DNA from: Phaeospirillum sp.
GTDB taxonomy: Bacteria > Pseudomonadota > Alphaproteobacteria > Rhodospirillales > Magnetospirillaceae
Length of the DNA stretch: 34,740 bases
NCBI GenBank assembly: GCA_030651575.1
Contig: JAUSFB010000012.1
Location: 1-34,740, forward strand
Reading direction: 5' to 3'
Under the pieces are notes generated by a model that ran no database searches, was not told the origin of the DNA, and saw only the letters and a list, made by a program, of their open reading frames with translations. Position 1 is the stretch's first letter. Every line of letters starts with the position of its first letter. Positions 9,516 to 26,258 of this stretch are shown piece by piece. A program made the translations under genes and the position numbers.

Positions 9516-9575
9516 GCGCAGCGGGAATATGTGGCCCATTTCCTGTCCTGTCCGCTTGAATGTCGATTGACCCTA
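9516..9575 (-). repeat. Dispersed 3'-flank repeat, copy B (46-bp core 9530-9575)
   Basis: This is the second copy of the element at 2392-2461, with four mismatches in the 46-bp core and a shorter outer part. On the minus strand it begins at the TAG stop codon of the PSD-like gene, and it fills most of the 68-bp gap to the convergent cyclase gene. Confidence 0.85.
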
Positions 9576-16298: not shown

Positions 16299-18332
16299 GT
16301 GACTGTCGAGACCGCCCCCTCCGTCTGCCCCCATGACTGCCCCAGCGCCTGCGGCTTGGTGGTGGAGCGGCCCGCACCCGATCGGATCGGCCGGGTTCAC
16401 GGCGCCGCCATGCCCTATGTGGAGGGCGTCATCTGCGCCAAGGTCGCCCGCTATGCCGAGCGGGTGCACCATCCCGACCGGGTGCTGCATCCGCTGCGCC
16501 GGGCCGGGGCCAAGGGCGAGGGGCGGTTCGTCCGGATTTCGTGGGACGAGGCGCTGGACGAGATCGCCGAACGGTTCAAGGCGGCCTCCGCCCGGTTGGG
16601 GCCAGAGACGGTGTGGCCGTACTTCTACGCCGGCACCATGGGGCATGTGCAGCAGTCGGGCATCAACCGCCTGCGCCGGGTCATGGGGTGGTCCGGTCAG
16701 TTGAAGACCATCTGTTCGTCCGCCGCCAGCGCCGGGTGGGGGGCGGGGGTGGGCTCGAAATGGGGCGTGCCCCCCGGCGAGATGGCGCAAAGCGGCCTGA
16801 TCGTGGTGTGGGGGGCCAACCCTGCCGCCACTCAGGTTCAGCTGATGGGGCTGATCAAGCAGGCCAGGACCGCCAACGGGGCCAAGCTGGTGGTGGTCGA
16901 TCCCTATCGCACCGCCACCGCCGCCAAGGCGGACCAGCACCTGATGTTGCGGCCCGGTACCGATGGCGCGCTGGCTTGCGCGGTGATGCATGCGCTGTTC
17001 CGGGACGGGTTGGCCGACCGCGACTATCTGGCGCGCTACACCGACTGTCCCGAGCGGCTGGAACGTCATCTGCAAAGCCGCACGCCGGAATGGGCCGCCG
17101 CCATCACCGGATTGACGGTGGCGGAGATCGAGGCTTTTGCCGCGCTTTACGGCGGCGTGAAGAACAGCTATCTGCGGGTCGGCTACGGCTTTGCCCGCTC
17201 ACGCAATGGCGCCGCCAATATTCACGCGGTCAGCTGCCTGCCGGCGATCACGGGCGCGTGGCGGCACAAGGGCGGCGGCGCGGTTCAAAGCACCGGCGGG
17301 GTGTTCGACCTCGGCCGGACTCTGCTGGACGGGCTGGACGTGCCGCAGGCCAAGACCCGCGTGCTGGATATGAGCCGGATCGGCCCGGTGCTGACCGGCG
17401 ACGACCTGGGCGACGGGCCGCCGGTGACCGCCATGCTGGTGCAAAACTCCAACCCGGCGACGGTGGCCCCCGATAGCGGGCTGGTGCGCCGGGGGCTGAT
17501 GCGCGACGACCTGTTCCTGGCGGTGCACGAGCAGGTGATGACCGCGACCGCCCGCTTCGCCGATATCGTGCTGCCAGCCACCACCAGCATGGAACACGCC
17601 GACCTTTACACCTCTTATGGCCACACCTTTTTGCAGATGGCCAAGCCGGTGATCGCGCCGCTGGGCGAGGCCCGCTCCAATCACCGGGTCATCGCCGAGC
17701 TCGCCCGTCGCCTGGGGGCCGTGCATCCCGGCTTCGAGATGGACGAGGCCGAGATGATCGAGCAGGTGCTGGCGGCCTCCGACCTGCCCACCGCCGATGA
17801 ATTGCACGCCATGGGTTGGCTGAACTGCGCCAAGGTGTTCGATGACGCCCACTTCCTGTCGGGCTTTGGCCATCCCGATGGCCGGTTCCGCTTCGCGCCC
17901 GATTGGGGGGACGCGGCCATGCCGGAATTGCCCGACCATTTCGCGGTGACCGACGAGACCGATGCCGGGCATCCCTTCCGCCTGATCACGCCGCCGTCGC
18001 GGCACTTTCTCAATACCACATTCACCGAGACGCCGACCTCGCGAGCCGGGGCGGTGCGGCCCACCGCCCTGGTCCATGCCGAGGATTGCGCCCGGCTGGG
18101 ACTGGTCGATGGCGGGTTGGTCCGGATCGGCAACGCCAAGGGCTCGGTGGTGGCGCATCTCCAGGTCACCTCCGGCATCGCCAGGGGTGTGGTGGCGGTG
18201 GAAAGCATCTGGCCGGACGAGTGTTTTGTCGAAGGCCGGGGCATCAACCACTTGACCAGCGCCGACGCGGCCAAGCCGGCCGGTGGCGCGGTGTTCCACG
18301 ATACCAAGGTCTGGTTGGAGCCGGCGAGCTGA
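16299..18332 (+). CDS. Molybdopterin-dependent oxidoreductase (formate dehydrogenase/DMSO reductase superfamily)
   Basis: A 677-residue enzyme. The N-terminal [4Fe-4S] motif is CPHDCPSAC (Cys10, 14, 18) with the fourth ligand Cys46 in GVICAK. The molybdopterin domains follow: RISWDEALDEIAERF, VVWGANPAAT, VVVDPYRTATA, MLVQNSNPATVAP, ADIVLPATTSMEHAD. The C-terminal beta-barrel ends with ADAAKPAGGAVFHDT. No Tat signal is visible, so it is probably cytoplasmic. The GTG start at 16299 is chosen because AAGGCG precedes it at 8 nt and the Fe-S motif follows immediately; ATG at 16251 is an alternative. No ferredoxin, cytochrome or cofactor genes are adjacent, so substrate and partner are unknown. A normal Sec or Cys metal ligand could not be confirmed. 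Confidence 0.88.
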   Translation: MTVETAPSVCPHDCPSACGLVVERPAPDRIGRVHGAAMPYVEGVICAKVARYAERVHHPDRVLHPLRRAGAKGEGRFVRISWDEALDEIAERFKAASARLGPETVWPYFYAGTMGHVQQSGINRLRRVMGWSGQLKTICSSAASAGWGAGVGSKWGVPPGEMAQSGLIVVWGANPAATQVQLMGLIKQARTANGAKLVVVDPYRTATAAKADQHLMLRPGTDGALACAVMHALFRDGLADRDYLARYTDCPERLERHLQSRTPEWAAAITGLTVAEIEAFAALYGGVKNSYLRVGYGFARSRNGAANIHAVSCLPAITGAWRHKGGGAVQSTGGVFDLGRTLLDGLDVPQAKTRVLDMSRIGPVLTGDDLGDGPPVTAMLVQNSNPATVAPDSGLVRRGLMRDDLFLAVHEQVMTATARFADIVLPATTSMEHADLYTSYGHTFLQMAKPVIAPLGEARSNHRVIAELARRLGAVHPGFEMDEAEMIEQVLAASDLPTADELHAMGWLNCAKVFDDAHFLSGFGHPDGRFRFAPDWGDAAMPELPDHFAVTDETDAGHPFRLITPPSRHFLNTTFTETPTSRAGAVRPTALVHAEDCARLGLVDGGLVRIGNAKGSVVAHLQVTSGIARGVVAVESIWPDECFVEGRGINHLTSADAAKPAGGAVFHDTKVWLEPAS

Positions 18333-18354
18333 GGGGGGATCACCCGGACAACCT

Positions 18355-18431
18355 TGCGGCCAAGGGCCGGCGCGGCCCGTGCCGCGAAAGCCAAGCGAAC
18401 GGAGTTCGCGCCCGGCGACTGAGGGACAGAA
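18355..18431 (+). repeat. Structured dispersed element, copy 1
   Basis: A 77-bp unit identical to copy 2 (18434-18510), with start-to-start distance 79 bp. It can fold as a three-way junction: outer stem GCCGG 18366-18370 with CCGGC 18412-18416; hairpin A CGCGGC-ccgt-GCCGCG 18371-18386; hairpin B GCGAAC-gga-GTTCGC 18395-18409. It ends ACTGAGGGACAGAA. The stop codon of the upstream molybdopterin gene sits in a similar CTGAGGGG string. Confidence 0.85.
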
Positions 18432-18433
18432 CA

Positions 18434-18510
18434 TGCGGCCAAGGGCCGGCGCGGCCCGTGCCGCGAAAGCCAAGCGAACGGAGTTCGCGCCCGGCGACTG
18501 AGGGACAGAA
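18434..18510 (+). repeat. Structured dispersed element, copy 2
   Basis: This is a perfect tandem duplicate of copy 1. It ends directly against the AAGGAA ribosome site (18511-18516) of mipZ. If transcribed, it would be in the mipZ leader and could affect translation. Confidence 0.85.
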
Positions 18511-18521
18511 AAGGAACATCC

Positions 18522-19325
18522 ATGACCAAGCGCGCACATGTGGTCGTCGTCGGCAACGAGAAGGGGGGGACCGGCAAATCGACGGTGTCCATGCACCTGA
18601 TCATCTGCATGTTGGAGCAGGGATTGTCGGTGGGCAGTATCGATATCGATGCCCGTCAGGCCACGCTGACCCGCTATCTGCGCAATCGCGAGACCCGCAA
18701 GGATCTGGCCGAACTGGGGCTGCAATTGCCCGAGCATGTGGCGGTGCCGCCCACCCATGATCGCGAGGGCGACGAGGCCCGGTTGCAGGAGACGTTCCAG
18801 GCCATGGTCGCCAGGCATGACGTGGTGGTGATCGACACGCCCGGTAGCGATCACTACCTGTCGCGGCTGGGTCATTCCTTCGCCGATACCCTGGTGACGC
18901 CGCTCAACGACAGCCTGATCGATCTGGATGTGCTAGCCCTGGTGGAGCCCGGCACCATGAAGATCCAACGCCCCAGCCATTATTCCGAGATGGTGTGGGA
19001 GACCAAGAAGGCCCGCGCGCTGCGGGGCGAGAAGGCGGTGGTGGACTGGATCGTGCTGCGCAACCGGCTGTCCAATCTGGACGCCCGCAACAAGCGCGAT
19101 ATGGAAATGCTGCTGGCTGATCTGGCCAAGCGGGTCGGTTTTCGCGTCATTCCCGGTTTGGGCGAGCGGGTGATCTACCGCTCCATGTTCCTGGAGGGGC
19201 TGACCTTGCTGGATCTGCGGCAAAAGATCCTGGGCTTCGAGTTCAGCATGAGCCATGTCGCCGCCCGCCAGGAATTGCGGACCCTGGTGGAGGGCATCGG
19301 GTTGAACCGGCTGAAGGCGCAGTAA
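18522..19325 (+). CDS. mipZ: MipZ-type ParA/MinD ATPase (division-plane positioning)
   Basis: A 267-residue cytoplasmic P-loop ATPase. The deviant Walker A, NEKGGTGKST with signature Lys14, and the switch VVIDTPGSDHYLSR match the MipZ family, which forms ParB-linked gradients that keep FtsZ away from the poles in alphaproteobacteria. IDIDARQATLTRYL, LVTPLNDSLIDLD and DWIVLRNRLS are also close to Caulobacter MipZ. Length is normal (about 270). AAGGAA lies five nt before the ATG. Two tandem copies of a structured repeat lie directly upstream. galU follows after about 100 bp. No parAB or fts genes are in view. Confidence 0.92.
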   Translation: MTKRAHVVVVGNEKGGTGKSTVSMHLIICMLEQGLSVGSIDIDARQATLTRYLRNRETRKDLAELGLQLPEHVAVPPTHDREGDEARLQETFQAMVARHDVVVIDTPGSDHYLSRLGHSFADTLVTPLNDSLIDLDVLALVEPGTMKIQRPSHYSEMVWETKKARALRGEKAVVDWIVLRNRLSNLDARNKRDMEMLLADLAKRVGFRVIPGLGERVIYRSMFLEGLTLLDLRQKILGFEFSMSHVAARQELRTLVEGIGLNRLKAQ

Positions 19326-21760: not shown

Positions 21761-26017
<4,257 letters not shown>

Positions 26018-26053
26018 GGGACGCCACCCCTGACGCGCCACCCGGCGCGGAGT

Positions 26054-26127
26054 TGCGGCCAAGGGCCGGCGCGGCTCATGCCGCGTAGCCAAGGGCGCGG
26101 ATGCGCCCGCCCGGCGCCTGAGGGACA
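26054..26127 (+). repeat. Structured dispersed element, copy 3 (diverged)
   Basis: It aligns end to end with copies 1 and 2. The outer stem GCCGG/CCGGC and hairpin A CGCGGC/GCCGCG are unchanged, but the loop of A is tcat instead of ccgt. Hairpin B is GGGCGC-ggat-GCGCCC instead of GCGAAC-gga-GTTCGC, so three pairs changed on both sides. It ends CCTGAGGGACA. It lies 36 bp after the mutase stop and 131 bp before the CBS gene start. Confidence 0.85.
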
Positions 26128-26258
26128 TCAAAACAAGACTTGGACGTTGAAATTCTCGGCCATGGGTCTCATTCTGGAGTCAATTCAGGGTAAGGCTGGG
26201 CATCGTCTCCCTGTTAGAACACGAAGCAGTTCAAAACAACTCCGAAGGGGGACTATCA

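Follow-up and report, generated by a model that had tools for sequence, protein, structure and literature searches.

What is the short structured sequence that stands twice, in tandem, ahead of mipZ in a contig of Phaeospirillum sp. and recurs beside a CBS gene? The window, by which we mean the whole analyzed stretch of 34,740 nt, had been given a sequence-only reading in which a ~75-nt unit folds as a three-way junction, with compensatory changes between copies, and could be a small mobile element, a transcript-stability element, or a regulatory leader. That observation was confirmed, and its interpretation was partly supported. The copies at 18355-18431 and 18434-18510 are 100% identical over 77 nt, the copy at 26054-26130 aligns to them gap-free at 74% identity, and a 20-nt seed from the unit is found at 3 places in the window, compared with a shuffle expectation of 0.05 (<=3 mismatches). 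The repeat is thus real, but the true element is longer, ~97 nt, with complete copies adding a 5' hairpin. Computational comparison across genomes places the copies in a family with a shared structure, a recurrent placement, presence at some orthologous sites and absence from others, and a constant 3' end.

Among the three options, a small mobile element fits best, while a copy-specific leader of mipZ or the CBS gene is not supported; an effect of the element on transcripts is possible. We give a rough probability of 0.56 to our best explanation, a nonautonomous interspersed element, MIRU-like in behavior, that spreads into gene junctions. Copies seem to slip between neighboring genes without breaking them, and we read the element as being kept folded while leaving the next gene a ribosome site. 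These sequences form a family, apparently not yet named, whose members are numerous at gene borders in magnetic bacteria and their relatives. The features of the window are listed below, where H1 to H4 are the hairpins of the element and R1 is a covariance model built on 24 own-genome copies.

18355-18427, + strand: element copy 1, with H2, H3, H4, and tail and without a good H1; R1 match 18329-18426
18357-18369, + strand: H2 hairpin of copy 1, CGGCC AAG GGCCG
18371-18386, + strand: H3 hairpin of copy 1, CGCGGC CCGT GCCGCG
18390-18416, + strand: H4 hairpin of copy 1, with base GCC/GGC, variable arms GCGAAC/GTTCGC, and apical GGA
18417-18433, + strand: tail GACTGAGGGAC and A-rich linker joining copies 1 and 2
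18434-18506, + strand: element copy 2, equal to copy 1 in sequence; R1 match 18427-18505
18507-18521, + strand: A-rich leader AGAAAAGGAACATCC from the element tail to the ATGA start of mipZ (ATG at 18522; MipZ PF09140)
26015-26022, + strand: TGAGGGAC, matching the element tail, at the stop codon of a phosphomannomutase-type gene
26030-26126, + strand: element copy 3, complete; R1 match 26030-26125, 104.9 bits
26034-26126, + strand: parts of copy 3, H1 26034-26049, H2 26056-26068, H3 26070-26085, H4 26088-26115, and tail 26116-26126

Pfam matches identify MipZ, the CBS gene, the phosphomannomutase-type gene before copy 3, and a molybdopterin oxidoreductase before copy 1. A good H1 is absent from both mipZ copies and present in copy 3 (26034-26049), and the TGAGGGAC at 26015-26022 may possibly be the remnant of a truncated first copy. 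Copy 3 had been described as lying just upstream of the CBS gene; instead, it directly follows the stop of the phosphomannomutase-type gene, and its tail lies ~133 nt ahead of the CBS start (26259).

The consensus of aligned copies begins with H1, CCGACGAGCC-loop-GGCTCGGAGTTG, followed by H2, CGGCC AAG GGCCG, by H3, CGCGCC nnRT GGCGCG, and by H4, GCC AA (arm) GGA (arm) GCCC GGC; NYTGAGGGAC and then ~8 A-rich bases complete a four-hairpin element of ~97 nt. The outer stem GCCGG/CCGGC proposed for a three-way junction is not the best structure, and that junction was rejected. Its 5' side is part of H2, in 49 of 102 copies the stem would open with a C-C mismatch, and a separate H2 hairpin is kept in 102 of 103. 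The two inner hairpins fared better: the stem CGCGGC/GCCGCG of the first (our H3) is kept with an altered loop, and the three double changes claimed for the second (our H4) between copies 1 and 3 are there, GCGAAC/GTTCGC (18395-18409) against GGGCGC/GCGCCC (26093-26108).

The folding energy of single copies is ordinary (z -0.94 and -0.65), so the evidence for structure is covariation and not energy. In the 24 own copies, whose alignment defined the structure, 98.6% of cells were paired, 54 cells were double-changed compared with 16.7 in shuffles, and the covariation score was 0.274 compared with at most 0.031 when partners were slid. Three other alignments were fitted to R1 and are biased towards it: one from 80 loci of named records, with 118 matches of which 110 are distinct (97.4% paired, double changes in 18/24 pairs, score 0.413 versus <=0.038 slid); one of 84 additional matches that shares 14 with the preceding set (96.5%, 17/24 pairs, 0.553 versus <=0.062); and one from 12 stretches belonging to other families of the order, with 18 matches (98.0%, 18/24 pairs, 0.634 versus <=0.101). 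Genome-wide copies therefore covary, which bears out the proposal of selection on, or spread through, secondary structure. An H4 parser read 155 of 206 sequences and found 81 distinct H4 hairpins, 71 with a GGA apex.

Mutation in duplex DNA yields G-U and A-C pairs equally. In H2-H4, G-U exceeded A-C by 19 to 3 (P = 9e-4), and by 12 to 3 in 70 fresh rows (P = 0.035), which argues for constraint on the folded sense strand; by this measure, the sense strand is the one under pairing constraint. Pairing maintained on that strand suggests that a folded single strand, either RNA or single-stranded DNA, matters for copying or for tolerance in mRNA.

The element is abundant and widespread, although copy numbers per genome are lower bounds, a limited number of candidates having been scored in each. 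R1 gave at least 85 matches in the own genome (E<=0.01), where BLAST with the unit found 69 pieces. Counting the own genome in each tally, the DNA query matched 27/40 genomes, and R1 matched 46/55 genomes of the family (12/17 genera) and 43/150 genomes of the order (25/79 genera; E<=1e-5), where copies are more diverged. Named holders include Paramagnetospirillum kuznetsovii, P. marisnigri, P. caucaseum, Phaeospirillum sp., Terasakiella sp. PR1, and Magnetospirillum sp. SS-4; their loci were collected through an exact 24-base pattern, which biases them to close relatives, and 80 loci were used out of 90 stretches. The 12 distant stretches largely keep the H3, H4, and tail motifs and differ in the sequences of H1 and H2. 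On plasmids, partial matches to approximately the last 55 nt occur in two Niveispirillum records and one Azospirillum record, and these Azospirillaceae matches are intergenic in the two records that list genes. A match of 47 nt of the 5' half in the plasmid search, in Deinococcus, was judged to be chance, and phage records gave no element match. More copies lie away from the junctions in loci of mipZ or CBS orthologs, at L191:2297-2390 and L216:833-942.

Placement was scored against the calls of a simple codon-model gene finder made for the analysis, on sets that contain orthologous loci from several species and so are not independent. Among 138 loci (181 copies), 60 were sense between same-sense genes, 26 antisense to both genes, 30 convergent, and 5 divergent; 3 were inside predicted genes, and 14, at sequence ends, were set aside. 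Arrays of 2-4 copies made up 31 of the 138. A fresh set (84 matches, 14 dropped as already seen) comprised 30 sense, 18 antisense, 16 convergent, and 4 divergent loci, with 2 at sequence ends. Sense exceeded antisense in tandem gene pairs by 60:26, by 30:18 in the fresh set (P = 0.11, not significant alone), and by 90:44 over both, most strongly in the own genome (24:5). Divergent gaps were avoided (9/189, compared with 75/307 background gaps, which include element-bearing ones). The tail lay within 16 nt of the opposing gene's stop in 42/56 loci (fresh, 21/34) and within 16 nt of the following gene's start in 27/60 start-facing copies (fresh, 7/30). With so few copies near a start, a ribosome site can account for only part of the copies. 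The copies inside predicted genes are at L131:2770-2863, L174:2602-2695, and L174:5211-5304, and at L173:7459-7567 an antisense copy is, by eye, seemingly read into a gene start.

Junctions compared between genomes show sites with and without the element. R1 found no copy at the CBS junction in 15/15 congeners, in some of which the upstream gene differs. At the mipZ junction, 22/22 other genomes lacked an R1 match at E<=0.001. Weak matches at the mipZ junction were seen in L205 (antisense, 25.3 bits), which looks like a diverged copy, and in L203 (22.7 bits); P. marisnigri (L140) carries a different copy there, and G010 and G005 have an ATGA overlap, by our own reading of frames. The pair that best reveals the mode of insertion is C60 of the own genome, an intact ATGA overlap, and its orthologous sites L097, L116, and L182, which read ATGA-element-ATGA. 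Such filled and empty orthologous sites indicate that the element has been gained or lost, and presence/absence together with copy number suggests active mobility. Upstream of mipZ in L192 (G011), the junction holds ~100 nt of other DNA, tgtcatcccgagcg..., so it is possible that this junction accepts different repeats.

ATGA is frequent at the borders of the element. The distance dd between tail and start was measured from GAGGGA for the named loci and, for most own ones, from GAGGGAC, which shifts it by about one base. ATG starts after the tail were ATGA in 22/24 at dd<=10 and 22/25 at dd<=11, compared with 275/560 in the background; the six fresh loci at dd<=11 gave 5/6 (P = 0.10, not significant alone). 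The upstream stop was ATGA in 10/26 (fresh, 3/6), compared with a background of 16.9%, and loci with ATGA on both sides are a minority. In ATGA-to-ATGA rows the element was in frame and open from the left ATG to the right TGA in 11/15, or in 9/13 independent loci (P = 0.009) once the insertion in L097, L116, and L288 was merged as one, that of L288 being judged orthologous from its identical frame; this count comes mostly from the data that suggested the idea, the fresh set having added only two independent cases. The longest common flank word showed only a slight excess (mean 4.29, compared with 3.92 by permutation), and the longest matches were mostly linker copies within arrays. The repetition of ATGA may nevertheless be a target duplication.

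Under the interspersed-element reading, a copy in an operon would enter beside or inside an ATGA stop/start overlap, the clearest cases being left with ATGA on each side. The overlap would be split and duplicated by the element, with the start mostly ATGA and sometimes a second ATGA at the left end, such that the upstream gene would retain its stop and the downstream gene its start, now behind the element's GAGGGA. This motif resembles a Shine-Dalgarno site of these bacteria, and at some loci a frame that begins at the left ATG stays open across the element as far as the right ATGA. On the side of a convergent gene, the element would settle mostly just beyond that gene's stop codon. Local tandem amplification would then yield arrays. 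Against this reading, no protein that might mobilize the element turned up, the own genome giving neither a Y1 transposase nor an RVT_1 match. Before 570 ordinary background starts, GAGGG is enriched 7 times and AGGGA 11 times, and this, along with the spacing, suggests a ribosome-site function for the start-facing share of copies.

If this is true, dozens of gene junctions per magnetotactic genome carry a structured element that we have not found described, and annotation of untranslated regions, operons, and mRNA stability in the order would be affected. It would also offer a natural experiment in the evolution of a mobile sequence toward harmlessness to translation, one in which hundreds of copies could be compared. 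How the element is copied is a well-posed question, given H4 arms that are hypervariable yet complementary, an apical GGA that is mostly conserved, a 3' end that stays constant, and a transposase that is missing.

The family is not known to Rfam: at the gathering score there was no match in the window, 10 element-bearing loci gave one match, a tRNA, and the best weak match, AS-pc01, scored 20.5 bits, the cut-off being 79, and lay on the opposite strand. The element is named in no title or abstract start found in the open-licence literature, and a passage of PMC1273637 describes five other alphaproteobacterial RNA motifs.

The closest likeness is to the MIRU, by description and not by sequence, and in another phylum. 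MIRU insert at DTGA sites; no paper on MIRU with DTGA was found in the open-licence literature. Passages of PMC2734929, PMC4213456, and PMC12548453 describe MIRU as mobile units of 40-100 bp (77 bp in senX3-regX3) that are dispersed, tandem, and intercistronic, with insertion at start codons, -4 coupling, and little effect on genes. The present element is likewise short, dispersed, intergenic, and often tandem, and it shares with the description in part of PMC12548453 the ATGA junctions, the arrays, and, in 9/13 independent ATGA-to-ATGA loci, a through-running open frame. The likeness is partial in that ATGA sites occur at a subset of loci and many loci are convergent or antisense; four-hairpin covariation, a Shine-Dalgarno-like tail, and antisense and convergent placements set the present element apart. 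The BOX and RUP repeats of pneumococci are described in part of PMC3049150 as short, dispersed, structured repeats, BOX being modular with tandem inner units, that are predicted to fold and to affect cotranscribed genes; the present element is similarly short, dispersed, and structured, but it shows no terminal inverted repeats by eye, its tandem unit is the whole element, it is GC-rich, and it has no linked IS as far as the Y1 search extends. The Caulobacter CIR is also a structured intergenic repeat in an alphaproteobacterium, compared here by description rather than by sequence, and a passage of PMC2229807 presents it as only partly MITE-like and discusses it with the GANTC motif.

Alternatively, the element could be a REP/BIME-like transcript element, a cluster of hairpins that protects, attenuates, or cleaves mRNA and whose mobility is incidental or long past. 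REP/BIME sequences, and REPINs with their RAYT, are dispersed intergenic palindromes near gene 3' ends that form tandem arrays, and the present copies resemble them in all of these respects, 116/121 classed intergenic loci being flanked by the 3' end of one or two genes. The sense bias in tandem gene pairs and the strand-specific pairing would also suit such a role, as would the several orthologous sites retained between species: at some, such as acpP-fabG, several species have a copy, the pattern expected of an old element that has been retained. On the other hand, about a third of the tandem-pair copies are antisense, orthologous junctions can lack a copy, and the element has four different hairpins rather than two inverted REPs. 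We consider this reading rather unlikely, albeit worth keeping in view. RAYT/REPIN mobilization was rejected, as the Y1 transposase PF01797 had no match in the own genome (5/14 control genomes were positive) and matched in only 4/17 genomes of the genus. A terminator function seems unlikely, there being no U-run past H4 in the sense direction.

It is improbable, in our estimation, that the element is SINE-like, the sense transcript of a four-hairpin RNA being written back into gene junctions, starting from its 3' end. We would give similarly little credence to its spread across Rhodospirillales by a reverse-transcribing activity that is transient or has escaped identification, and to its own ribosome site and A-rich tail rendering each insertion silent. 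Such copying would fix the 3' end, leave an A-rich tail, truncate copies at the 5' end, create short duplications, and produce arrays whose first unit is truncated, and the ends of the element fit in part. Among 70 own-genome matches, 23 begin past column 3 and none stops short of column 70 of 74. The 3' end thus varies far less than the 5' end, with one exception, the H1-H2 fragment at C69 2040-2080 that lacks H3, H4, and tail. After GAGGGAC, A makes up 57-63% at +7 to +9, compared with about 13-25% beyond +20; this stretch follows copies facing a start and copies facing a stop alike, and so seems to be the element's own. First units of arrays are often truncated, and several begin right after the upstream ATGA. 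Sense-strand pairing also agrees. However, the truncations are fewer than they appear: five of the 23 begin at column 4-5 (the other 5' subtype or near it), some of the nine that begin at 9-23 bear a different 5' module, and the nine that begin at >=36 comprise one internal deletion (C35 13847) and eight tail-only fragments. Furthermore, the 3'-truncated fragment does exist, array linkers look like the 3' flank, which simple tandem duplication would produce, and RVT_1 (PF00078, the only reverse transcriptase family covered) has no match in the own genome or G008, two genomes among the richest in element matches; it matches in 10/17 genomes of the genus.

The hairpin modules bear on a further alternative, a dead palindromic MITE whose arms are kept complementary by template-switch correction, the folded strand having no function. 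In its favor, H2, H3, and H4 show double transversions for which intermediates are few, and the main types of H2 and H3 combine freely across copies (P = 1.0). Yet correction in duplex should give G-U equal to A-C, and 31 versus 6 were seen over both sets; also, most members of the order retain the tail and the unpaired AA and GCCC adjoining H4 to a large extent. Among classical MITE features, the consensus has, by eye, no terminal inverted repeat, and the short ATGA repetition is found at some loci only. We consider a dead MITE very improbable. At the site that we take, from its motifs, to be acpP-fabG, four genomes have an element at the same position; the H4 arms are identical among them, and the H2/H3 types differ on both sides. 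Together with the free combination of H2 and H3, this suggests that modules change as units, through either conversion between copies or repeated compensation.

Least credible is a riboswitch-like cis-regulatory leader for mipZ or the CBS gene, which the position upstream of both genes in the window had suggested but which is contradicted as a general role, as one genome has at least 85 matches adjoining many other genes in either orientation, the CBS junction is empty in 15 congeners, the mipZ junction has no strong match in 22 genomes, and the GGA loops have no CsrA partner. CsrA titration through these loops was rejected on the same ground (PF02599 in 0/24 genomes, the own one included).

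Variants of the element were also seen. In tandem copies at L152:5994-6273, H2 is replaced by GCCC-GTTGA-GGGC, a subtype, and another subtype carries GGCAAGGCCAAGGGCCGCC. Several copies (L101, L133, L138, L163, L169, and others) have an extra hairpin, GGCGAGTCA...TGACTCGCC, just after the tail, which is possibly an optional fifth module.

The window holds other repeats as well. A 49-nt sequence at 2413-2461 recurs at 9527-9575, 7.1 kb away, in the same orientation and at 90% identity, with no evident relation to the element. At 2-559 and 484-825 there is an 18-base tandem repeat (19 register copies) and then a 159-nt direct duplication, with 39-nt repeats at 597-674; the repeats of 2-825 are probably a repetitive coding region.
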